Assembly: GCA_021740915.1 (NCBI GenBank)
Contig: JAIOYW010000018.1
Coordinates: 1-64,000, forward strand
Origin: Ignavibacteriales bacterium
Lineage (GTDB): Bacteria; Bacteroidota; Ignavibacteria; Ignavibacteriales; Melioribacteraceae
Reading direction: 5' to 3'
DNA length: 64,000 bases
Numbering within the stretch: the first letter of the stretch is position 1; each line of letters starts with the position of its first letter. The notes under the pieces were generated by a model. The model was not told the origin of the DNA. It did no database searches and was given only the letters and a program-made list of their open reading frames with translations. This document shows, in pieces, positions 1-12,912 of this stretch. The position numbers and the translations under genes are program-made.

Positions 1-2311
1 CCATACGGTAGTCTTTCAGTGATCCGGTTACGTTATCCGGGAATACAAAACGTGCGTCAAAGATTCCTGCCGGTGGTGCCGGTGGTAGTTCTGCTTCGCC
101 AAGTCCTGCATCCAGTCCGTCTGTTCCAAGAGGATCGATACCTGCTGCCATATTGTATGTGCCGCCTACGCCGTCAACTACATTGAATGCGATTTCATAC
201 ATTGCTGCTTCATTAACACCTTTTTCGCCGTCTTTTACCGGGGTATTCATAATGAGTTCACCGTTGCCGGAAGCTTTTACCCAATATCCATGTCCTGGCA
301 TCAGGTTCTCCGGAACTACATATCCATTATCAAAACCAAAAAATGAAGATGCTATCAATCCCGGGGGATCAGAAATTACAGCAGATACAGGAGTCTCAAC
401 ATTAAATGGTCCGACCATATTCCAGCCTTCACTAACTGAAACATTTCCAACAAAAGCCTGTCCTGTAAATGTATGTTCATCTGCTTCAGAAAACTTCAGC
501 CAGTAACCGGCACCATTAATAAGATTATCAACGACCACATAACCATTGTCAAATCCAAAAGCGCTTGTTACTGCTGCCGGGAAAAGTGTTGCAACTGACA
601 TATCAGCCATTGCAAGCGGAACTGAAATAATATTCCAGCCGTCCGCAGTATTAAATGTAGATTCCAGTGCAGAAGTAAATTCTATTTTTAATGATGTGAC
701 AGCGCTATTGGTAAGTGAAAATGTATTTGTGCTTTTCATATTAACATTGACAAAAATTCCTCCAAATGCATCTGTCAGGTAAAAAGATCCATCTGGTAAG
801 GATTCAGGGTTCCAGTTAAATGTAAAAGGATAGCCGGAAACGCCTGGCTGGAATTGAAATGTCCATTCCGCCTCAGTCAATTCGGAGTTCCTTATGTCGA
901 TTAGTGAAGAGGCAGGAGGAGTAACCGGTAAATTAAGTCTTGCATCGAATGCACCGGCAGGTGGAACAGGAGGAAGCTCAATTTCACCAAGTTCGCTGTC
1001 TATACCATCTGTGGCATTTGGATGCTGACCGATTTGCAGGTCAATATCTGATTTTGCGCCGCCCGCATCAAGTACAGAAAGAGTAAGATTCCAGACATTT
1101 GGTGGTGTCCCTGCAGGGCCTGATAGTGTTGCATATCTTCCTGAAACTCCGGCAACAACCGTCCTGATAAGCACACCTGATTCACTGTCAATTTCATGGA
1201 CACCGGCGCCATTAGTAACAATGTAATTGCCATTGCCCAGCTGAAAGCAGCCGCGTAATCCAGTTACACCTGTAAGAAATTTGATCTGAGTTCCATTCGC
1301 ATCATAGACATACAAACCGGAAGGTGGTGAAAAACCGGCTACTGCTACATTGCCGTCAGTCTGCTCCGATATTTGTTCCGGAAAAGAAATTGAGGTGACA
1401 AAATAACCCAGTAAATTCCCGTCAAAATCATAACGATGAACTGCATTGCTTGAAGAGCCTGAGGCAAGCGCATCAGATGCTCTGAAAATAATATCAAACG
1501 GGCTATCTACTCCACCGGTGGTCGGTGTGATAAAACTTCCAATAAAATTGCCCATATTATCAAATTCCTGTATCAGGTCATCAACTGGGGCAGAACCATT
1601 TGTCACCAGAAGATTTCCCGTTACCGGATGATAATTATGTCCCCTAACATTATTGAGGATATCATTATTAACTCCGCCAGCCGGTGCAAAAAAACTTGAG
1701 AACACACCTGCTGTATCATATGCCATTACCCCGTCCTTTATCTGATCGGAGATAGAGTAAAATCCCCATGGACTGGTTCTTGTCTGGATGGGTGTTGTGA
1801 GATTCGAAGCATCAGAGAGTGTTACTTCAGGGTCAACAAGATCACCTGAATAAGGATCTAATCCGAGAGTTCTTTTCCCGGTTGATTCCATTACCAGGAG
1901 CATGCCTCCTTCAGATTTCAGATTGGAGACCGAATACCCTAATCCCGGATTTGTAATTCTTCCATCGGTATAATGCATTCTTGCATCATTCAAATTTATT
2001 TCAGCAGAGATTTGATGCCAAAAGGCAGTATAACCGTTGTTTATCGGATCATGAACTTTAGTAATGACAGCATAGACCGGCATACCGTTTTCAACACCGA
2101 CAGCATCTATAAAATATCCATCTTTCGTATAAATACTGAAAGGAAGTCCAAAATTCGCTGCGGCTAGTCTTGCCTCCGTAATGAGGCCGAAATCGTTTTC
2201 CGATTTTAAAAGCAGATCATTATAAGAGATATTTGGTCTGTCCTGTGCTTTAACAATAAAAGCAAACAAAACCAAAGCAAAAAATACATACTTGTGTAAG
2301 TTTTGATACAT
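1..2311 (-). CDS. Secreted multidomain surface protein, partial (runs off left edge)
   Basis: One uninterrupted frame starts at an ATG at 2309-2311, with GGAGG at 2316-2320 as ribosome site, and is still open at base 2, giving about 770 visible residues. The N-terminus (MYQNLHKYVFFALVLFAFIV, then KAQ) is a Sec signal peptide. The first half has repeating propeller-like phrases about dates, locations and text (NHL/beta-propeller style, uncertain). Around residues 430-450 and again around 720-752 there is a repeated phrase of the type ATDGxDxxLGExELPPxPPxGxFDAR. Between them are two related units starting GWNIISVPL (about 555) and GWNMVGPF (about 630), each followed by GFDNGYVV. Such proteins in Ignavibacteria usually end in a T9SS sorting tail, which would lie outside the window; that is inference. 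It follows the porin gene by 76 bases and may have its own promoter. Function unknown; probably exported to the cell surface. Confidence 0.85.
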   Translation of the reverse strand, partial: MYQNLHKYVFFALVLFAFIVKAQDRPNISYNDLLLKSENDFGLITEARLAAANFGLPFSIYTKDGYFIDAVGVENGMPVYAVITKVHDPINNGYTAFWHQISAEINLNDARMHYTDGRITNPGLGYSVSNLKSEGGMLLVMESTGKRTLGLDPYSGDLVDPEVTLSDASNLTTPIQTRTSPWGFYSISDQIKDGVMAYDTAGVFSSFFAPAGGVNNDILNNVRGHNYHPVTGNLLVTNGSAPVDDLIQEFDNMGNFIGSFITPTTGGVDSPFDIIFRASDALASGSSSNAVHRYDFDGNLLGYFVTSISFPEQISEQTDGNVAVAGFSPPSGLYVYDANGTQIKFLTGVTGLRGCFQLGNGNYIVTNGAGVHEIDSESGVLIRTVVAGVSGRYATLSGPAGTPPNVWNLTLSVLDAGGAKSDIDLQIGQHPNATDGIDSELGEIELPPVPPAGAFDARLNLPVTPPASSLIDIRNSELTEAEWTFQFQPGVSGYPFTFNWNPESLPDGSFYLTDAFGGIFVNVNMKSTNTFSLTNSAVTSLKIEFTSALESTFNTADGWNIISVPLAMADMSVATLFPAAVTSAFGFDNGYVVVDNLINGAGYWLKFSEADEHTFTGQAFVGNVSVSEGWNMVGPFNVETPVSAVISDPPGLIASSFFGFDNGYVVPENLMPGHGYWVKASGNGELIMNTPVKDGEKGVNEAAMYEIAFNVVDGVGGTYNMAAGIDPLGTDGLDAGLGEAELPPAPPAGIFDARFVFPDNVTGSLKDYRM

Positions 2312-2387: not shown

Positions 2388-3989
2388 TCAGAATTTCCAA
2401 TTGAAATTAATGAAAATACGACCTAATGTCGTGTTTTGTTCGAACGTCCCCTCATAATTGAGAGTCAGATAAAATTTTCTCAGGAAATTAACACCCAGGT
2501 CAGCTTCAAGAATATTCTGTTTAAGATCGGTAGCGCTGCGAATAAAATGATACTTTACTATTCGGTATCCAATACCGCAATCAAGTAAATTGTTTAAGAG
2601 TTCTTTCCTTATCTGAAACCCTGCAATGTTGCCGTCAATGTAATTTGTTCTAAGGAAATTTGTCGAAAAAGAGAGTGAGGCATTAATTAGCGGGACTCTG
2701 GAATATGAAGCATAGAAACCATAATTATCAGATGATCTGATATCAGATTTCTTAGCCCTCGTGCCATAACTTATGCCCAGGAAGAGATTATTGAACGGTC
2801 TGAGATTTAAACGCGCCCTGAAACCCTGTCTTGTTTCATTGTCGTAGATACTATCTGCAAGAGTTCTGAATGTTTCATAATAAATGACATTTTTTCTTGC
2901 ATCATAAGAAGCATTCATAGATAACCATCGGTTAAAACTGTAACCGGCAGAAAGATAGATACTTGTAATATTAAAGGTGGTCTCAGAAATACCACGGAAT
3001 TTTTTATAAAGATCAATTTCTGAAGAGAAGAATAAGTTTAACCTGCTTAAGGGTAAGGAAGAATGCTGAAAATACAGAAATCTCCTGTCAGTATTTAAAT
3101 TATTTGTCTGATTAATAATACTGAATGAATTATTCATTATTCCTTCAAATACCGAGTCCTGCCGGGATATGTATGCTCCTGCCTGAAATAATTTGACAAT
3201 GACTCCGTAATCCGAAAAATTCGGTCGGGAGCCGGCAATTACACCATATTCAAAATACTTTGTGTTATTTTCATATTGGAATCCATCAATAGCGCCGGCA
3301 TTGGAAAGTTTGGGATTTATTTTTCTTCCAACCGTAAGTCTGGATGATTCACTTATTTTATAAATTAGGGCAAGGTCATATATCTTGAGGGCTTCTCCAA
3401 GATTCGATTTTACTCGCTGCCAGTCACGGGTACGATAATTAAAGGTAATATATGTCTGTAAATCAATCGGCAAACCTGCAACATCTTTACTATCGAGAGA
3501 AAGCCTGTAGCGCCACCTTTGATTATCAGCCCGGCTGCTGTAATTATTAAAATTTGTATAGGATGTGACTGAAAACTTTCCTCTAAAATCAGAAGATTCT
3601 TTGATGAATTCTTTGGATTTATCTGGTAAAACTGCAATTACTGGTTCAATCATATCTTTTGAATCATCAGTGGAATCTGCAAACTCTCCCGTAAATCTTG
3701 CAAACCCGGTTAAGGAATCGCCTTTTTTAAATTCCGCTTCTGTAATCGGCTCACCCGCGAGAGAAGTACTTGACTTAAATTTGACTTTCACAACAGGAAT
3801 TAAGTCAGTTCCACGGCTATAATAAAGTGTATCGCCTATCTCGAAACCCTTAGTCTCGCTAAACTTGACATAGATGGTGGACCGGGTGACAAGAGAGATT
3901 TCACCTGTTATAGCAATGCTTTTTTCTTGAGCATTAAATGAAGCCGCAAAAAACAGGCATACAGTAAGGAAATATATTTTTTTCATCAT
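2388..3989 (-). CDS. Outer membrane beta-barrel protein (porin-like), partner of the giant cytochrome
   Basis: A 533-residue protein with signal peptide MMKKIYFLTVCLFFAASFNA. Residues about 25-95 look like a small SH3-like beta domain (ITGEISLVTRSTIYVKF, then KGFEIGDTLYY). From about residue 135 to the end there are many alternating hydrophobic/polar strands rich in Tyr, Phe and Asn, and the chain ends in INFNWKF, a terminal aromatic residue as in BAM-inserted barrels. The start ATG overlaps the stop of the 61-heme cytochrome gene (ATGA), so the two are translationally coupled. In known porin-cytochrome conduits a barrel holds multiheme cytochromes across the outer membrane. By position this protein would play that part; that role is inference. 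An ordinary porin is the alternative. Confidence 0.75.
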   Translation of the reverse strand: MMKKIYFLTVCLFFAASFNAQEKSIAITGEISLVTRSTIYVKFSETKGFEIGDTLYYSRGTDLIPVVKVKFKSSTSLAGEPITEAEFKKGDSLTGFARFTGEFADSTDDSKDMIEPVIAVLPDKSKEFIKESSDFRGKFSVTSYTNFNNYSSRADNQRWRYRLSLDSKDVAGLPIDLQTYITFNYRTRDWQRVKSNLGEALKIYDLALIYKISESSRLTVGRKINPKLSNAGAIDGFQYENNTKYFEYGVIAGSRPNFSDYGVIVKLFQAGAYISRQDSVFEGIMNNSFSIINQTNNLNTDRRFLYFQHSSLPLSRLNLFFSSEIDLYKKFRGISETTFNITSIYLSAGYSFNRWLSMNASYDARKNVIYYETFRTLADSIYDNETRQGFRARLNLRPFNNLFLGISYGTRAKKSDIRSSDNYGFYASYSRVPLINASLSFSTNFLRTNYIDGNIAGFQIRKELLNNLLDCGIGYRIVKYHFIRSATDLKQNILEADLGVNFLRKFYLTLNYEGTFEQNTTLGRIFINFNWKF

Positions 3990-6900
3990 TTGTCAATTAA
4001 TTTTAAGTGACTTGCTGATTTATCGCTTCCATCCGGGTGACAATCATAACAGGCGATGCTATTATAAATGTAGCCCTGTACCCCTTCATGCTCATTATCC
4101 ATTTCAGATTGACGATGCTCATGGCAGTCAATACAGGAGAATATTGAGAAATTTCCAGCAACAGTATGGCAATCTGAGCAGAGATTCCATTCATCATCAT
4201 GTTTGCCTGAATAAATCGGGAAATACTGCTGATCGTGATTAAACGTTGACGGAATCCATGCGCTCTGAGAATGACATTCTTCACAATCAAGCGGAAATCC
4301 TTGTGATAAATGGTTTGGATTCGAAACTGAATTGTAATCCTGCTGATGGCATCCGACACAAGTGTTCGCAGTATTATTATAATTTCCATTATGGCATGAA
4401 ACACATTGATCTGAGATAAGATTATGTGCGCCGATCAGAGCAAAATAATTATTATGAATCGGAAACGAGGCAGGTTCCCAATTTGCATTTGTAGTATGGC
4501 ACTGGTCGCAATTCTGAGGAATGTTCAGGATTTCGTGATCAGGATTCGCCGAAGCCTGAAAATCGCTGAGATGACATTCAGAACATACACTGGATGTGCC
4601 TGTGTAACCAACGGCATGACAATCGGAACACTGGGTTGTAAGATGTACTCCTGTCAATGGGAAATTTGTATTGGCATGATCAAATGTAACCTCGTTCCAT
4701 GCAGTAGCAGAATGACATAATTGACAATCTGTCGGGAAATTTTGTGTCACATGATCAGGTGCTGTATTATATACAGATAAATGGCAATCCACGCATACAG
4801 ATGAAGTACCAGAGGTCACTCCCTGGTGGCAATCTGAACATGTTGCGGAAGTATGTCCTCCTAATAGCTGAAAATTTGTACTATTGTGATCGAATGACCC
4901 CGGAACCCAGGCAATGGTATTATGACAATCCTGGCATTGATCAGATAAACCGATAGCAGTATGATTGGGATTCAAAGAATTGTTAAAGTTCGATAAATGA
5001 CAATCAACACAAACAGAAGAAGTGCCGGAAGTTATTCCCTGGTGACAATCTGAGCAATTCGCGGATGTATGACCTCCTAAAAGCTGAAAATTTGTACTAT
5101 TGTGATCGAATGTCCCCGGAACCCAGGCTATTGTATTATGACAATCCTGACACTGATCAGATATTCCGATAACTGTATGATTGGGATTTAGGGAATTGTT
5201 AAAGTCTGATAAATGACAATCAGCACACAATGTGGAAGTTCCGGATGTGGAGCCTGTGTGACAATCTGAACACTGATTGGTGATATGTGCGCCAGCGAGT
5301 TGAAAACCAGTTGCAGAATGGTTAAATGTCCCCGGGATCCAAGCGGTGGTGTTGTGACAATCCTGACAAACATTCGAGATACCTGCTGTCTGATGGTTAG
5401 GATTTACCGAATTCAGATACTTTTGCTCATGACAGGATATACAGTCAACCGGGAGAGGGTTATAACCGGAGATGTGACAGACGCTGCACTCAGTCTCAAG
5501 ATGCGCACCAGTAAGCGGGAAGGCGGAATTAGCATGATTAAATGAACTTCCTTCGCTTCCATCCGGATGACAAGCTAAACAGGCTGTGCTGCTAAATTGA
5601 TAGCCCTGGACTCCCTGATGTTCTGAAGCCATCTGAGCTTGTCCATGCTCATGGCAGTTGATACACTCAAATACTGAATAATTCGAAGAGATTGTGTGAC
5701 AATCCGAACAAATATTCCATTCCCCCTGATGTTTTCCTGAATATATTGGAAAAAAGGCTGCATCATGTTCAAAAGTCGATGGTGTCCATGCAGTCTGGTT
5801 ATGACATTCAGTACAGTCCTGAGAAAAACTTGGTAAATTATGCGGCGGGTTCGAAACTGACTGGTAGTCATCCGAATGACAGCCATAACACTGATCCGGA
5901 GTGTTCACATAATCTCCTGAATGACATTGACTACAGTCATTGCTAATCTGTGTATGTGCTCCTGTAATCAGATAGTATTGATTATGCTGCGGAAATTCTG
6001 CAGGCTCCCACCCGATTGAAGTAGTATGACATGTGGAACAATCGTCGCCCAGATTTAATGCTGTGTGATTCGGATTAATCGCCTGCTGGTAATCATCTGA
6101 ATGACAATCTGTACATGCAGTCGAGGTGCCTGCAAGTCCTCCTGTATGACAGGATTGGCAATCGGTATTCGTATGTCCGCCTGTTAAAAGGAAATTTGTC
6201 TGTCCGTGATCATAAACGATATCAGCCCATTGTTCACTTACATGACAGATATCGCAATTTGTCGGATAATTTTGGCCAAGATGATTCGGCGCATTGTTGT
6301 AATTCTGATCATGACAACTCAAACATTCCGTAGGAAGAGCGGAATAACCATTTGTATGGCATTGACTGCAGTCAAGCGGAGAATGCGCCCCTGTAAGCGG
6401 AAAAGCTGATGTCTGGTGATCAAACGCCCCCTGATCGCTTCCATCAGGATGGCAGGCAAAACATTCAGGGCTTGAATAGATATATCCTGTTATCGATCTG
6501 TGTTTCTGATCCATTTCGATTTTGTTGTGCTCATGACACTGAGTACAATCAAAAGCTGAAAAATTTGAAGCTTGTGTATGACAATCAGCGCACGAAGCCC
6601 ATTCCCCATTGTGTTTTCCTGAATATATCGGAAAATAAGGTCCATCATGGTCAAAATTGGCTTGATTCCATTGGGTCGGAGAATGACAATCTTCGCAGGT
6701 TGTAGGAAATCCGGCAGAAAGGTGTGCCGGGTTCGTTGAGTTATTATATTCAATCGTATGACAAGAATAGCAGTCTGAGTTGGTATTTGAATACCCAGTC
6801 GAGTGACAATCTGAACATGAGACCGTAATAAGCGAATGAGAATTTGTTAATGCGAACACATTATTATGATCAGGATATTGAGCTGGCTGCCATCCTGGTC

Positions 6901-8551
6901 CTGTCTGGTGGCATCTGGCACAATCTGTTCCGGTATTTATCGTAATATGGTTTGGATTCTGTGCACTATTGTAATCAGTTTGATGACAATCAGAACATTG
7001 CGCTGATGTTCCGGCAAAACCGGCTGAATGGCAGTCAGAGCAGTTTGCTGCATTATGAGAGCCTGTCAAAGGAAAATTAGTTGCCGAATGGTTAAATGTT
7101 GAAGCCTGCCAGGTTTGCGTATCATGGCAGATCACACAATCGGTAGGATATCCCTGCGGCAGATGATTCGGAGCACTCTGATAATTATTTAAATGGCAGC
7201 TGTAACAGTCAGTCGGTGTATTTTGATAGCCTGTTTGATGACAATCGGCACAACTTACTGATTGATGTTGCCCGGTGAGTGGAAAACCTGTATTTGCATG
7301 ATTCGGTCCGTCATCTCCCTCACCTGAAGGATGGCAAGTATAACAAGCCTGACTATTGTACTGGTATCCATTGACTCCCTGATGGTCGCTATCCACTTCA
7401 GACTTATTTGAATGTTCGTGACAATTAATACAGGAGAAATCCTGGTAATTTGAGCTATTTATATGACAGTCTGAACAATTATCCCATTCACCACGGTGCT
7501 TGCCCGAATAAATCGGGAAATATGGCCCATCATGGTCAAAATCTGCCGGTGACCAGGCATTCTGATTGTGACATTGTGTACAATCTGTATCGAATGCAAG
7601 GGTCTGATGCGGAGGATCAACCGTAGAATTATATTCATCCTGATGACATCCGACGCACTGATTGGGGGTATTAGTATAACCCGCAGAATGACAAGACTGA
7701 CATTGGCTGGCAATGGCAGTGTGAGCCCCGATAATCGGATAGATATTGTTATGCCCCGGGAATTGTGCAGGCTGCCAGCCTGGTGATGTCGTGTGACAGG
7801 TTTGACAATCCTGAGAAAAATTATTCTGGGAGTGTGAAGGGTTAACGGTTGCCTGGAAATCCTGTAGATGGCATGAAACACATTGGTTCGAAAGTCCTGT
7901 AAACAGGTTGCTCGTATGGCAGGAAGCACAGGTTGCAATAGAATGTCCTCCGGTCAGAGGGAAAAAATTATGATCGAAACCAGTCCCGGACCAGGAATTA
8001 GAAGTCAGGGTATGGCAACTTTCACAGTCTTTTGAAAATCCGGACAAAATATGGTTGGGATTCTGTGTGGAATTATAGTCTTCGGTATGACAGTCGAAAC
8101 ACTGGACACCTAAAGGAACAAAATTTAATTTCGATGATGAGCTGTGACAACTCTCACAATCGGCAACCGCATGTGACCCCAGTAGCGGAAATCTTCCCAA
8201 CTGATGAATTTCAGTAATGCTGCTTACGACCCAGGATTCTGGTGTGTGGCATCTTTCACAATCAAAACCAGTGGAATTCTCATGCACATCTTTGTGGCAA
8301 CTGATGCAGCGGGAATCTGAAGAACTGAAGACAAGTGTATTATGGCAGCTTTTACAGTCTGCTGCTTTATGCTGCCCCAAAAGTTCAAATCCAGTAGTAG
8401 AATGGTCATACGAAAGTTTTGAACGATCAATCTTCCAGTTATCTGTTGTATGACAAACAAGGCAATCTATGTCGAAATTACTTCCATGCGGAGATTGTCC
8501 GAATATTCCATTAGAAAGGAATAATATTATCAGGAATGACAGACGATACAT
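3986..8551 (-). CDS. Giant multiheme c-type cytochrome, about 61 CxxCH heme sites
   Basis: A 1521-residue exported protein (signal peptide MYRLSFLIILFLSNGIFGQ) in which I count 61 CxxCH motifs, about one per 25 residues. No lipobox, membrane helix or T9SS tail is visible. Many hemes follow a phrase such as FxHxxTxFxLxGxH, whose histidines are likely distal ligands. The chain is made of four super-repeats, each containing a phrase FPIYSGKHxxEW (near residues 346, 641, 937, 1445) and closing with a CxxCHP(D/S)G phrase. By my count they hold 16, 12, 12 and 21 hemes. It probably moves electrons along the periplasm or outside the cell. Its gene overlaps the 20-heme gene upstream by 22 bases and the porin gene downstream by 4. 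Multiheme cytochrome is certain; the electron acceptor is unknown. AGGAGGG lies 5' of the ATG. Confidence 0.93.
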   Translation of the reverse strand: MYRLSFLIILFLSNGIFGQSPHGSNFDIDCLVCHTTDNWKIDRSKLSYDHSTTGFELLGQHKAADCKSCHNTLVFSSSDSRCISCHKDVHENSTGFDCERCHTPESWVVSSITEIHQLGRFPLLGSHAVADCESCHSSSSKLNFVPLGVQCFDCHTEDYNSTQNPNHILSGFSKDCESCHTLTSNSWSGTGFDHNFFPLTGGHSIATCASCHTSNLFTGLSNQCVSCHLQDFQATVNPSHSQNNFSQDCQTCHTTSPGWQPAQFPGHNNIYPIIGAHTAIASQCQSCHSAGYTNTPNQCVGCHQDEYNSTVDPPHQTLAFDTDCTQCHNQNAWSPADFDHDGPYFPIYSGKHRGEWDNCSDCHINSSNYQDFSCINCHEHSNKSEVDSDHQGVNGYQYNSQACYTCHPSGEGDDGPNHANTGFPLTGQHQSVSCADCHQTGYQNTPTDCYSCHLNNYQSAPNHLPQGYPTDCVICHDTQTWQASTFNHSATNFPLTGSHNAANCSDCHSAGFAGTSAQCSDCHQTDYNSAQNPNHITINTGTDCARCHQTGPGWQPAQYPDHNNVFALTNSHSLITVSCSDCHSTGYSNTNSDCYSCHTIEYNNSTNPAHLSAGFPTTCEDCHSPTQWNQANFDHDGPYFPIYSGKHNGEWASCADCHTQASNFSAFDCTQCHEHNKIEMDQKHRSITGYIYSSPECFACHPDGSDQGAFDHQTSAFPLTGAHSPLDCSQCHTNGYSALPTECLSCHDQNYNNAPNHLGQNYPTNCDICHVSEQWADIVYDHGQTNFLLTGGHTNTDCQSCHTGGLAGTSTACTDCHSDDYQQAINPNHTALNLGDDCSTCHTTSIGWEPAEFPQHNQYYLITGAHTQISNDCSQCHSGDYVNTPDQCYGCHSDDYQSVSNPPHNLPSFSQDCTECHNQTAWTPSTFEHDAAFFPIYSGKHQGEWNICSDCHTISSNYSVFECINCHEHGQAQMASEHQGVQGYQFSSTACLACHPDGSEGSSFNHANSAFPLTGAHLETECSVCHISGYNPLPVDCISCHEQKYLNSVNPNHQTAGISNVCQDCHNTTAWIPGTFNHSATGFQLAGAHITNQCSDCHTGSTSGTSTLCADCHLSDFNNSLNPNHTVIGISDQCQDCHNTIAWVPGTFDHNSTNFQLLGGHTSANCSDCHQGITSGTSSVCVDCHLSNFNNSLNPNHTAIGLSDQCQDCHNTIAWVPGSFDHNSTNFQLLGGHTSATCSDCHQGVTSGTSSVCVDCHLSVYNTAPDHVTQNFPTDCQLCHSATAWNEVTFDHANTNFPLTGVHLTTQCSDCHAVGYTGTSSVCSECHLSDFQASANPDHEILNIPQNCDQCHTTNANWEPASFPIHNNYFALIGAHNLISDQCVSCHNGNYNNTANTCVGCHQQDYNSVSNPNHLSQGFPLDCEECHSQSAWIPSTFNHDQQYFPIYSGKHDDEWNLCSDCHTVAGNFSIFSCIDCHEHRQSEMDNEHEGVQGYIYNSIACYDCHPDGSDKSASHLKLIDK
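4861..5292 (-). repeat. Two tandem 216-bp direct repeats inside the giant cytochrome gene
   Basis: Bases 4861-5076 and 5077-5292 are similar copies in direct orientation. For example GAAAATTTGTACTATTGTGA occurs in both at a 216-base offset, and runs such as CCCCGGAACCCAGGC and TTATGACAATCCTG recur at the same offset. Each copy encodes 72 residues with three CxxCH motifs. Similarity continues more weakly on both sides. This marks a recent duplication within the coding region. Confidence 0.85.
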
Positions 8552-10113
8552 CTTATATCTTCCCTCCTAAATTGACGATATTTTTCACCAGAGACTTCAA
8601 CAATTTTATGACATTCAGAACAAGGCACTTTTTCGTGAGCCCCGGCAAGTGAAAATTTTGTTTTGGAATGATCAAATTTTTCAGGTTTCCAATCATTAAA
8701 ACCATGGCATTTTAAACAATCCGTCTTCCCATCAATTGCAAATTGTGACTTATGAATATCAGAATGGCATGATTCGCATTCAGACGAAAGGTTTTTAAAC
8801 AAATGCAATTTTTTTCCTGAAAATGTCTCCTTTATATGGCAAGATGAGCACTGTATCTGATTATGTCTGCCGAAAAGAGAAAATTTGGTCTTGTTATGAT
8901 CAAAAGTTACAGAAGACCACAGGTCTGTATCGTGACAATTCTCACAACGGTTTTTTCCAAGATAAGCTTCAGAAATCTGATCGCCATGAACGTTTTTATG
9001 GCAGCGGGCACAATTATCAGACTGAACCCTGAAATTCCATATACCTTCGAGCAAATGACAGGATTCACAGGGTGTTGCCAAATGCCCACCAGTCAATTTA
9101 AATTGTGAATTATTATGTTCAGTAATTGAAAATAGCGACGGTGTGAAATTTTCTACCACGTGACACTCGGAACAATCCCGGATCAAATTGATGGTGGAAA
9201 ACTGCCCCTTATGATAATCTTCATGACAATTAGCACATTTTTCAAATTCAGGCTTTGAAGCTATCCCTCCTGAGTGGCATTTTTTACAATCAAGATTCGT
9301 ATGCTTTCCAAGAAGTGGAAATTTGGTTTTTCCGTGGTCAAACTTATCAATGTTAAGTATTTTTTTGAAAGATTCTGTGGAATGGCAGTCAGTACAGCTT
9401 TTACCGAATGCTCCGTTATGTATATCGTTATGACATGATTCACATGAATTAAAATTAAGTCCGGTAAACCTCTGAAATTTTCCTTCTTTGGTCTCCTCGA
9501 TTCTGTGACATTTTTCACATTCGACTTTCTGGTGTGACCCGGTCAGTTTGAACTTTGTCCGGTTATGGTCAAAATTAACAGCCGGTTTGAAACTGTCATT
9601 ACCGTGGCAGGATGAGCATTCAGAACCTAATTTTCCCTTATGAAAATCTTCGTGGCACGAGAGACAGGTTTGCTCAAGTCCTAAATACGTTCCCTTCCTG
9701 CTTTTTAATTCTTTATCAGTAATAAAATCAGCTTTGTGACACTTAGCACATTCTGCCTGATTATGTTTCCCGATTAATTTGAATCCTGTTTTATTATGAT
9801 CGAAAGACTTCTCATCAAATCGGACTATCTGGAAATTTCTACCATGATGTTCACTATGACAGGAGAAGCAATCTTTTGATCTCGCTTCAGGCGAAACATG
9901 GAATCCTCTCTCCTTTGAAATAAGAGCAGCAATTTCTTTATGGCAGGTGAGGCATTTATTATTTGATACTGCTTTGCCTAATTCGTGGCATTTTGTACAA
10001 TTGCTCATGCCCTCGTATTTAGAATGTGCTTTAGTAAGATCGCCGGGTGAAATCTGTGCAGATAGATTTATGAAACAGAAAAAGGCAGCCAATATTTTAA
10101 TTAATGTTTTAAT
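8530..10113 (-). CDS. 20-heme c-type cytochrome; probable ATT start
   Basis: I count 20 CxxCH motifs in about 527 residues. Six repeats of a phrase FDHxxTxFxLxGxH, each followed by a CxxCH, show a three-heme module of about 72 residues, the same module as in the giant cytochrome next door. The start is unusual. The first conventional start, TTG at 10092, leaves only AAFFCFINLSAQ as leader. Reading from ATT at 10111-10113 gives MKTLIKILAAFFCFINLSAQ, a complete signal peptide with a basic N-region, and an in-frame stop lies 6 bases further upstream. A GGTGA sits just 5' of the ATT. The start overlaps the oxidoreductase gene by 13 bases, suggesting coupling. Likely a periplasmic electron carrier between the inner-membrane parts and the outer-membrane conduit (inference). 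Confidence 0.9.
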   Translation of the reverse strand: MKTLIKILAAFFCFINLSAQISPGDLTKAHSKYEGMSNCTKCHELGKAVSNNKCLTCHKEIAALISKERGFHVSPEARSKDCFSCHSEHHGRNFQIVRFDEKSFDHNKTGFKLIGKHNQAECAKCHKADFITDKELKSRKGTYLGLEQTCLSCHEDFHKGKLGSECSSCHGNDSFKPAVNFDHNRTKFKLTGSHQKVECEKCHRIEETKEGKFQRFTGLNFNSCESCHNDIHNGAFGKSCTDCHSTESFKKILNIDKFDHGKTKFPLLGKHTNLDCKKCHSGGIASKPEFEKCANCHEDYHKGQFSTINLIRDCSECHVVENFTPSLFSITEHNNSQFKLTGGHLATPCESCHLLEGIWNFRVQSDNCARCHKNVHGDQISEAYLGKNRCENCHDTDLWSSVTFDHNKTKFSLFGRHNQIQCSSCHIKETFSGKKLHLFKNLSSECESCHSDIHKSQFAIDGKTDCLKCHGFNDWKPEKFDHSKTKFSLAGAHEKVPCSECHKIVEVSGEKYRQFRREDIRCIVCHS

Positions 10114-11438
10114 ATCACTTCACCATATTTCTTTGTTATATTAATTCCAATTTTTTCGAGAAATTGATTAGGGAGTTCTCCTCCGGCAAAAACATAAACC
10201 AAATCATTATTGATCTCAGCAATCTCGTTGTCAATTTCAATCAGGACTGATTTTTCCTTGATCTCTTTAACATTGGATTTTAAAATGACATCAATTTTGC
10301 CTGATTTATTATATTCTTCCAACAGTTCAAGATTTTTCGATTTTATCCGGCTGAATGAATCAGCCCGATATGATAATTTAACCCTGTTGTTTTCATCGGC
10401 TAACATCATTGCTGATTCAACAGCGGAATCTCCTCCACCAACTACCAGAATATCCTGTTCTTTTATAAGTTCCGGTTCAAGCAGCCGGTAATATACTTTG
10501 GGCAAATTCTCCCCGGGCACTCCTAATTTCCGTGGCGAACCTCGTCTTCCGATTGCCAGCAGAATCGCCTCGGAAGTATAGACCCCCGCGGAAGTTTCAA
10601 CCTGAAAAATATTCTCACTTTTTTGAACACTCGTAACTTTATTATACTCTTTAATATCAATGCTATTTTTAGTAATGACATCATTCCATAATTCCAGGAT
10701 CTGCTGCTTATTAGTCTCAACAAATTTCACTTTTCCATATAGCGGCAAATCCATCGGTGAAGTCATCACTAACTTAGCTCTTGGAAAAGTAAATACTGTC
10801 CCGCCGATACTGTCCTGTTCGAGGCAAACAGAACTTATGCCCAGTTTCTTAGCAGAAAGGCTGGCGGCGATCCCGGCAGGACCAGCACCTATAATGATCA
10901 GATCATATTGTGCACCTGATTTCTTTGAGAGAGATGAAGCAATATTTTCAACTGCCTGTTTTCCCTGTTCTACCGCATTTTTAATTAACCCCATTCCTCC
11001 CAGTTCACCGGCAATATATACACCCGGAACATTAGTCATAAACTTCTCATTAACATGAGGAAGCTCGACACCTCTTTTTTCAGTACCTATAACAAGTGAT
11101 ATAGCCTGAACCGGACATGCGTGAAAACATGCACCATGACCCACACATCGTGATGCGTTTATTGTGGTTGCCTTTCCTCCTGCAATTCCGAGGATGTCCT
11201 TCTCCGGACAAGCAGCGATACATGCACCGGAACCAATACACGAATCAGGGTCAATTGATGGATGAAGTGATACTGGTTCGAAAATTCCAGTCGCTTTCGC
11301 CTTATTAATTTTCTCCCTTGTTATTGCCGAAGATTGTCTTTTAGATTTTATATATTTTATGACAATAATGATGGCCAATAGAAAAAGTACAGCGTATGTG
11401 ACCAGATTTTCAATCAGAACTTCCGACTGAGCATCCAA
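10101..11438 (-). CDS. Membrane-anchored ferredoxin/FAD/NAD(P) oxidoreductase
   Basis: 445 residues. A membrane helix at about 9-29 is followed by a ferredoxin-like part with two motifs, CIGSGACIAACP (Cys 67, 73, 77) and CVGHGACFHACP (Cys 98, 104, 108). Then comes a thioredoxin-reductase-like flavoprotein with FAD-binding GAGPAG (about 184-189) and NAD(P)-binding GGGDSA (about 334-339). The redox CxxC pair of true thioredoxin reductases is not seen. In both ferredoxin motifs the usual second Cys is replaced (Ser 70, His 101). It starts with TTG, AAAGG upstream, 2 bases after the TPR gene. Likely passes electrons between NAD(P)H and the membrane or cytochrome chain; direction and partner are inferred from the operon. 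Confidence 0.85.
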   Translation of the reverse strand: MDAQSEVLIENLVTYAVLFLLAIIIVIKYIKSKRQSSAITREKINKAKATGIFEPVSLHPSIDPDSCIGSGACIAACPEKDILGIAGGKATTINASRCVGHGACFHACPVQAISLVIGTEKRGVELPHVNEKFMTNVPGVYIAGELGGMGLIKNAVEQGKQAVENIASSLSKKSGAQYDLIIIGAGPAGIAASLSAKKLGISSVCLEQDSIGGTVFTFPRAKLVMTSPMDLPLYGKVKFVETNKQQILELWNDVITKNSIDIKEYNKVTSVQKSENIFQVETSAGVYTSEAILLAIGRRGSPRKLGVPGENLPKVYYRLLEPELIKEQDILVVGGGDSAVESAMMLADENNRVKLSYRADSFSRIKSKNLELLEEYNKSGKIDVILKSNVKEIKEKSVLIEIDNEIAEINNDLVYVFAGGELPNQFLEKIGINITKKYGEVILKH

Positions 11439-11440
11439 TT

Positions 11441-12049
11441 CTATAACCTTTTTAATGATTCAGCGGCAAGTTTCGCGGCTTCGCTTTCAGGATACCTGTC
11501 AATAATTTTCTCCCAAATAAGCTTAGCCTTTGATTTATCACCTCTTGTGGCAGCAATAGCGCCTAAATTATAATTAGCTTCACGATTGTCCTTATCGAAG
11601 GATAAAATAATATTAGTGTATTCTTCAGCTTTGTCGATCCTGCTGGCATTATAATGCATTAAGGTAAGACCAAGCAGAATATCTGTCCTTTTGGGACCCT
11701 TTAAAAGTATTTTTTCTAAAATTGGTATTGCCTGCTCCGTCATATGCGCTGAGGCCAGAACTTCTGCATAAGCTTTGGCTTTGACAGTATCTTCAGGATT
11801 TCCTTCGTATGCTTTTTTCAGCATTTCCAACTGGTGTTTGAAACTCTGGCTCACATTTGATCTCGAAGGCTCATTTCCCATCGGATTCATGTTTTTGTGT
11901 ATATCATCCTCTGGCATATTTTTGCTGGCAATATTAGCTGGATTTTGAGGCTCACTATTTCCAGGACCAATAATAATAATCCCAATGATAATTGAAAGGA
12001 GAGCAAATATATATATATATACTGGTTTAATTTTTTTTAGAATATCCAT
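11441..12049 (-). CDS. Membrane-anchored TPR protein
   Basis: About 202 residues from ATG 12047-12049 (MDILKKIKPVYIYIF). A longer reading from 12136 would lie mostly inside the upstream gene and begins with implausible sequence, so I reject it. One N-terminal membrane helix (about 8-26) is followed by a low-complexity linker rich in Asn, Pro and Met, then three to four tetratricopeptide repeats from about residue 75 (phrases such as AIPILEKILLKGP and ANYNLGAIAATRGD). It overlaps the end of the heme-b-like gene by 13 bases. Similar TPR proteins often serve as assembly factors for cytochrome complexes (c-type maturation CcmH/CycH-like); a scaffold or assembly role for this operon's cytochromes is inference. 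Confidence 0.8.
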   Translation of the reverse strand: MDILKKIKPVYIYIFALLSIIIGIIIIGPGNSEPQNPANIASKNMPEDDIHKNMNPMGNEPSRSNVSQSFKHQLEMLKKAYEGNPEDTVKAKAYAEVLASAHMTEQAIPILEKILLKGPKRTDILLGLTLMHYNASRIDKAEEYTNIILSFDKDNREANYNLGAIAATRGDKSKAKLIWEKIIDRYPESEAAKLAAESLKRL

Positions 12050-12912
12050 GTGTACCCGAATGTTATTGAAACTCCAACGTGAATTAACATAATGATTAGC
12101 ATAATTATGGCAAATGGCAGATGTGCAACATGCCAATATCTGAAAAGTTCTTTCATTGAGGATAATAAAACAATCCTCCTCTGAAGTACAAGTTTTGTCT
12201 TGATTATTTTAAGTAAAATTTTTAGATCTTTACCTTCAACACCAGTAGCTTTTAGTTCAAATCTTAATTTATTTAATAAAAGATAATTAGACCATTTATC
12301 CTCAAAAAGAAAAAATAATTTATGAAGATGTCCTTGCCTTGAAATTGATCCGAATTTACCAGCATCATCCAGTTTACTAAGTGTACTTGATTGAATTGCA
12401 TATTCAGTACGTAACTGATCATTGATTGAAGTATTCTGCCTCATCAGATCATCGATGGTAAGTTCATTTCCCTGAATTGTTCTCGGTATTTGAATGTAAA
12501 TAAACCTGCCGATTACTCCGCTAAGTACAACAGCTACCATACTCCAGAAACTGACGGATACCAAACCGCCGAACTTGAATGAGGTGTGAAATAGAACGAG
12601 AATTGGGCCGAGAGAACAAAGAAAAATATGAAATTCAAGCCAGTGTTTAAGTTTACCTAACCGAAATATTTTTTTGTATCGTTTTCGTATCATATAGATA
12701 CTTACGCCCAAAAGCATAAAAATGGAGCCAATGATACCGAAACCATGTCCTAATAATCCGGAAGGCTTCAGTAATTCATATAACGGATGGAAAAACCTTT
12801 CCTCAATGGGAAGGGAATAATATGAATAGCCGTAATACACAAGAATTACAGTGGTGAAAAGGCTGATGAGTAAAAAACCTGATATATATATTCTATGAGT
12901 TATTTTGTTCAA
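12037..12912 (-). CDS. Polytopic membrane protein, probable b-type cytochrome
   Basis: 291 residues, TTG start. Membrane segments at about 10-30, 55-76, 92-112, 116-138 and 263-287, with a long soluble loop at about 139-258. Histidines sit at or near the helices: H56 (LLGHGFGIIGS), H90, H95 and H109 (LEFHIFLCSLG, then VLFHTSF), and H261, H264 and H278 (YWHVAHLPF, then LIHVGVSITFG). This layout suits a four-helix protein binding one or two b hemes with His-His ligation, as in cytochrome b561/NapC-like quinol or ferric reductases, but I recognise no exact family. It is the first gene of the electron-transfer operon and overlaps the TPR gene. Likely the inner-membrane electron entry or exit point. 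Confidence 0.7.
   Translation of the reverse strand: MNKITHRIYISGFLLISLFTTVILVYYGYSYYSLPIEERFFHPLYELLKPSGLLGHGFGIIGSIFMLLGVSIYMIRKRYKKIFRLGKLKHWLEFHIFLCSLGPILVLFHTSFKFGGLVSVSFWSMVAVVLSGVIGRFIYIQIPRTIQGNELTIDDLMRQNTSINDQLRTEYAIQSSTLSKLDDAGKFGSISRQGHLHKLFFLFEDKWSNYLLLNKLRFELKATGVEGKDLKILLKIIKTKLVLQRRIVLLSSMKELFRYWHVAHLPFAIIMLIIMLIHVGVSITFGYTWIF

Follow-up and report, generated by a model that had tools for sequence, protein, structure and literature searches.

A PCC3-type porin-cytochrome gene cluster with a candidate NAD(P)H dehydrogenase head in Ignavibacteria and Bacteroidota

Six genes of an Ignavibacteriales bacterium raise the question of whether electrons could be passed from cytoplasmic NAD(P)H directly to a partner outside the cell. 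The genes occupy positions 2388-12912 on the minus strand of the window, which is the whole stretch of 64,000 nucleotides that was analysed; its first base is the start of a contig (C32) in a 4.35-Mb genome of 35 contigs. An ORF check of the window recovered all six reading frames in this interval, and motifs, domains and a structural model bore out the protein types named by a first-pass annotation, namely a heme-b-like membrane protein, a TPR protein, an oxidoreductase, two cytochromes and a barrel. Reading along the minus strand, the genes encode a predicted inner-membrane di-heme cytochrome-b-type protein (IMP; 12037-12912, 291 aa), a TPR protein with one N-terminal membrane helix (11441-12049), a membrane-anchored Fe-S/FAD/NAD(P) protein (FNR; 10101-11438, 445 aa), two multiheme cytochromes with signal peptides (MHC20, 8530-10092, and MHC61, 3986-8551) and an outer-membrane beta-barrel (2388-3989, 533 aa). 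The same annotation had described these genes as overlapping or lying within 2 bases of each other. Strand, order and overlaps were confirmed (13 nt between IMP and TPR gene, 22 nt between MHC20 and MHC61, 4 nt between MHC61 and barrel, with a 2-nt gap between TPR gene and FNR), but FNR and MHC20 are separated by 8 nt when the latter is taken to begin at the TTG at 10092. A protein starting at this TTG has no charged n-region for its signal peptide, and the reading frame is open further upstream (window 10092-10122, minus strand). Starting from the in-frame ATT at 10113 yields a proper signal peptide, MKTLIKILAAFF..., and an overlap with the FNR gene; a rare ATT start or an assembly error is possible. 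The TPR gene was assigned the ATG start that gives 11441-12049, and a longer TTG frame begins at 12136. A consensus scan revealed no excess of terminator-like sites (4 versus 7.9 expected in shuffles). Most relatives with the barrel show the same gene order, and the cluster is therefore not a product of chance. A large secreted-protein gene (2-2311, minus strand), truncated at the contig end, lies 76 nt behind the barrel gene. It was rejected as a seventh member, as none of the close relatives checked carries a homologue next to the cluster; distant homologues were found there only in one locus (L135), on the opposite strand. The C-terminal half of this secreted protein is 62% identical to another protein of the same genome (L101:3-3383), which is encoded near a gene pair on contig C22 described below.

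The composition of the cluster was compared with described porin-cytochrome complexes (PCCs). PCC3 is a putative complex of four genes in Proteobacteria (He et al. 2017, PMC5566968; the same four-gene composition is given in PMC8788666), with examples in Slit_0867-0870 and Slit_1446-1449 of Sideroxydans lithotrophicus (PMC5566968). Besides a porin, it comprises a periplasmic cytochrome with a median of 21 hemes, an extracellular cytochrome with a median of 34 and a maximum of 85 hemes at 22-39 aa per heme, and a five-helix IMP of roughly 300 aa that has an SGXXG motif in helix 4 and WX3HX13H motifs in helices 3 and 5 (PMC5566968). The window encodes a predicted 22-strand barrel, a 20-CxxCH protein presumed to be periplasmic, a giant cytochrome of 61 CxxCH motifs and 25 aa per heme that is presumably surface-located, and a 291-aa IMP with five hydrophobic segments and all three motifs on the same helices. 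Matched in this way to the published description of the proteobacterial complex, the four-gene core is PCC3-type. The cluster departs from the four-gene composition by an invariant FNR and, in some cases, the TPR protein; its barrel has about 22 strands versus up to 42 in PCC3 porins, and its hosts are Ignavibacteria and Bacteroidota whereas published PCC3 is proteobacterial. Because other redox genes are allowed in PCC clusters by He et al. (PMC5566968), it is regarded as a PCC3 variant and not as an exclusion from this class. The FNR is absent from the published composition and is new as a PCC3-cluster member. The statement of the first-pass annotation that this exact gene set was not known as one system thus applies to the FNR, but not to the four of six genes that match PCC3 (PMC5566968). 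A literature search found no text linking PCC3 with Ignavibacteria. The presence of PCCs in Bacteroidetes is not wholly unreported, since unnamed putative PCCs were mentioned in this group (He et al. 2019, PMC6344600). Other systems share fewer features. PCC4 (He et al. 2017) has the IMP helix motifs, a porin and additional redox proteins, one of which, in subgroup II, carries Fe-S, but unlike the window it contains three smaller periplasmic cytochromes (4, 5 and 10 hemes) without a giant extracellular one. The MtrCAB and OmbB-OmaB-OmcB conduits likewise combine a barrel with periplasmic and surface multiheme cytochromes, yet they carry 8-12 hemes per cytochrome and have a quinol-oxidising entry, and no recognisable homology of the window barrel to theirs emerged from the matches listed. 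The 20 hemes and about 22 strands found here differ from the decaheme cytochrome and 28-strand MtrB of MtrCAB/MtoAB, as do the heme counts from the 8-heme and 12-heme cytochromes of OmbB-OmaB-OmcB.

The barrel protein contains a signal peptide, a small N-terminal beta domain (residues 24-98) and a C-terminal F, and the AlphaFold (AF2) model (mean pLDDT 80) places 22 long strands between residues 135 and 533. The structural matches listed for it include ushers as well as porins and point to a generic outer-membrane barrel, the best match having Z 18.0, an rmsd of 4.7 and 338 aligned residues; MtrB was not among the matches listed, an absence that carries no weight. Searches against Pfam, NCBIfam and PHROGs gave no match that passed standard cut-offs, a weak one to OMP_b-brl being the sole result. 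The five hydrophobic segments of the IMP span residues 8-26, 57-75, 94-112, 117-135 and 265-283. Helix 3 carries H95 and H109 (WLEFH-X13-H at 91, WLEFHIFLCSLGPILVLFH), helix 5 carries H264 and H278 (WHVAH-X13-H at 260, WHVAHLPFAIIMLIIMLIH) and helix 4 carries SGVIG at 131-135. In an alignment of 16 diverse homologues, reaching from Ignavibacteria to Methylophaga, none of the four histidines varies. No Pfam or NCBIfam match was obtained for the IMP, a profile search against solved structures gave chance matches only, and its predicted structure (pLDDT 66) is a poor model. Enzymes of the NADPH oxidase/ferric reductase type (FRD, PF01794) likewise possess two HX13H helices, two b hemes and a cytoplasmic FAD/NAD(P)H module. 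The IMP shares the two HX13H pairs but shows neither PF01794 nor a fused flavin domain; the flavin module of the window is instead a separate, thioredoxin-reductase-type protein (Pyr_redox_3) with two Fe-S motifs, and the electrons are proposed to go to multiheme cytochromes.

This separate protein, the FNR, starts with a helix at about residues 12-30. As positive charges come after the anchor helix, the catalytic part is probably cytoplasmic. Two 4Fe-4S-type, ferredoxin-like motifs are combined with a thioredoxin-reductase/YpdA-like FAD and NAD(P) module that lacks the CxxC of thioredoxin reductases; the nearest solved relatives are YpdA/Bdr (7a7b, 7a76) and thioredoxin reductases. The module has an FAD motif and GGGDSAxE, and the latter is followed by an invariant stretch, YRxxxFxRxKxxN, which we take to resemble NADPH-binding arginine motifs, and its arginines would suggest NADPH as the coenzyme. 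In the second Fe-S motif, CxGHxxCxxxCP, an invariant histidine stands where the second cysteine is expected, and in Ignavibacteriales and Emticicia the first motif reads CIGSGAC, with a serine in this place. Because of these replacements both clusters may be unusually ligated, each with one non-cysteine ligand. When five of the proteins were aligned across twelve Ignavibacteriales sequences, the FNR showed the highest conservation, with a mean column identity of 73%. Fer4-less homologues of about 830 aa and YpdA-like homologues are background paralogues located outside the clusters.

To assess co-occurrence, 296 genomes were sampled evenly from the GTDB phylum. Intact IMPs turned up in 28 of these, with one further, broken copy (G025), and a full-length FNR was present in exactly the 28 genomes with an intact IMP and in no others (Fisher p = 2e-38, a value inflated by shared ancestry). 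The broken copy (L042, contig C56) is a decayed locus in which a fragment of the barrel remains and internal stops interrupt the IMP; a full-length FNR was not found in this genome, and the whole system seems to have been lost as a unit. A wider scan, with one genome for each of 84,980 species, yielded 565 relatives of the IMP. Among the best 80 named loci of the 565, the FNR accompanies the IMP in 74, and contig ends truncate the remaining 6 too early for its presence to be judged; all hosts of these 80 belong to Bacteroidota/Ignavibacteria (Ignavibacteriae, Bacteroidales, Saprospiraceae, Prolixibacteraceae, Chlorobiota and others). In one of two deep clades the FNR gene is found between IMP/TPR and MHC20, whereas in the other it follows the barrel gene; it has therefore been kept despite rearrangement. 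It is an invariant, non-incidental member of the cluster. In the FNR tree the window sequence falls among Ignavibacteriota-labelled genomes. The barrel is present in almost every locus that extends far enough to contain it. The first-pass annotation had named scattered homologues as an observation that would speak against a single system; instead, homologues were found clustered across Bacteroidota and Ignavibacteria. A complete set with ccsA upstream is encoded on plasmid pEMTOL02 of Emticicia oligotrophica DSM 17448 (EMTOL_RS21090-21110), where the TPR gene is absent. This gene is also missing from most Bacteroidales and Saprospiraceae clusters, and the TPR protein was accordingly rejected as a core member and is viewed as an optional accessory.

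The cytochromes contain exactly 20 and 61 CxxCH motifs, the numbers first annotated, and no CxxxCH. MHC20 has 26 aa per heme, and its profile gave a weak match (E 3e-4) to the MtrCAB-complex structure 6r2q. Its counterparts have 20 hemes in most relatives and 23 in Saprospiraceae, Emticicia and one further genome (G166), while the second cytochrome ranges from 10 to 82 hemes. The heme number is 3n+1 in 62 of 71 distinct, complete second cytochromes (binomial p 5e-21 versus one third, a figure that ignores shared ancestry), and length increases by 24.6 aa per heme (r 0.998). MHC61 itself is composed of about 20 three-heme units plus one heme, with a heme spacing of period three (autocorrelation 0.95). 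Within its gene, a tandem array at 4776-5368 (minus strand) consists of units of about 216 nt, corresponding to 72 aa and three hemes, that are 78-86% alike; judged by this likeness, the array is a recently duplicated triheme unit. The 3n+1 rule, the length slope, the period of three and the array together indicate that the presumed wire grows by whole triheme units. Heme-containing repeats had already been noted for PCC3 cytochromes (He et al. 2017, PMC5566968), and a statement of the three-heme rule was not found in the PCC3/EET literature consulted for comparison. In Saprospiraceae/Bacteroidota MAGs (L208, L201 and L197) the second or third cytochrome reaches 82, 72 and 69 CxxCH motifs, near the published single-protein record of 85.

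The probable reading of this gene set is a PCC3-type conduit across the cell envelope that is headed by an NAD(P)H dehydrogenase of its own. Cytoplasmic NADPH (or NADH) would reduce the FAD of the membrane-anchored FNR, from which electrons would pass through the two Fe-S clusters to the IMP, and the di-heme b of the latter would carry them across the inner membrane. They would then enter the 20-heme cytochrome, which is thought to span the periplasm and reach into the barrel, and leave through the 61-heme cytochrome, a putative wire outside the cell, to an acceptor such as a mineral, humics or another cell. Such an arrangement would resemble an NADPH oxidase/ferric reductase with membrane and dehydrogenase parts as separate proteins, joined to a porin-cytochrome complex, and its electron export would probably bypass the quinone pool. 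Counting against this reading, PCC3 is itself a putative complex, and in Sideroxydans ES-1 expression of its genes fell on Fe(II) (PMC8788666). The proposal of the first-pass annotation that all six genes form the conduit is retained for the route from NAD(P)H to the exterior, which is best supported, and dropped for the TPR protein, which lies outside the conserved core.

The main rival is an ordinary PCC3, in which the IMP would exchange electrons with the quinone pool and the flavoprotein would be a side enzyme that maintains or primes the complex or reduces another substrate. This is the quinone-linked model proposed by He et al. for the PCC3 IMP (PMC5566968), and where inner-membrane entry points for bacterial EET have been characterised, all three families act as quinol oxidases/quinone reductases (PMC6295460). 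The genome of the window itself holds a short IMP paralogue of 190 aa (contig C22, L101:6062-7577, minus strand) with both HX13H pairs and SGLIG, whose gene overlaps that of a 10-heme cytochrome with neither a flavoprotein nor a barrel nearby. The IMP family is therefore not always dependent on an FNR, as the rival would have it. A similar short-IMP/10-heme pair adjoins the main cluster in another genome (G035, L102). Against a mere side enzyme stand the perfect co-occurrence of FNR and intact IMP, the retention of the FNR through rearrangement and the repeated association of the wider IMP family with a second kind of NAD-flavoprotein. Distant IMP homologues on the five proteobacterial plasmids inspected (Methylophaga, Alteromonas, Methylocystis, Qipengyuania and Acetobacter) directly follow a gene annotated as '2Fe-2S', and a cytochrome gene is usually next. 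The two such proteins scanned, from Methylophaga and Alteromonas, combine FAD_binding_6, NAD_binding_1 and Fer2 and thus belong to a different family from the FNR. Modules of this kind (Alteromonas, Methylophaga, Qipengyuania, Acetobacter) resemble the window in their homologous IMP and NAD-flavoprotein and differ in the flavoprotein family, the small cytochrome and the absence of a barrel. As two different NAD-flavoproteins are paired with the IMP family, it can be argued that this family accepts electrons from NAD(P)H, and we consider the quinone-linked reading unlikely.

Electron flow in the opposite direction, from an extracellular donor through cytochromes and IMP to the flavoprotein to make NAD(P)H, appears more doubtful still. 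Conduits can be reversible, and PCC3, described from Fe(II) oxidisers, was given a model of electron uptake (PMC5566968). With two b hemes and neither proton nor bifurcation machinery, however, it is not obvious what would drive electrons from donors near 0 V onto NAD(P)+. Many heterotrophs are also found among the host lineages, including Emticicia, Saprospiraceae and Bacteroidales. The outward direction is thus inferred from energetics: reduction of NAD(P)+ through a simple two-heme IMP would be uphill for most extracellular donors. Of the two activities first suggested, respiration on an outside partner or its oxidation, export is accordingly favoured and oxidation is less likely. That the giant cytochromes are mainly an electron store or periplasmic buffer, with the barrel as an export or anchoring pore, would suit the very high heme load and the generic barrel fold but is very improbable, as a fixed 20/23-heme protein beside one of freely varying length fits an inside and an outside wire and the barrel is retained in nearly all loci long enough.

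The conduit with an NAD(P)H dehydrogenase head may, tentatively and at somewhat less than even chances, represent a widespread class of EET in Bacteroidota and Ignavibacteria that would draw electrons straight from NADPH through a split NADPH-oxidase-like head, bypass the quinone pool and lengthen its outer wire in three-heme steps. At the inner membrane, bacterial EET starts from quinol oxidases wherever the entry point has been characterised (PMC6295460). If an entry point tied to NAD(P)H is true, fermenting or oxygen-limited Bacteroidota could dump reductant outside the cell, and the orphan PCC3 would gain a testable electron source. As a complete cluster is present in the cultured Emticicia oligotrophica, the system is open to genetics and electrochemistry, and the three-heme length step provides a concrete hypothesis for the growth of giant cytochromes.
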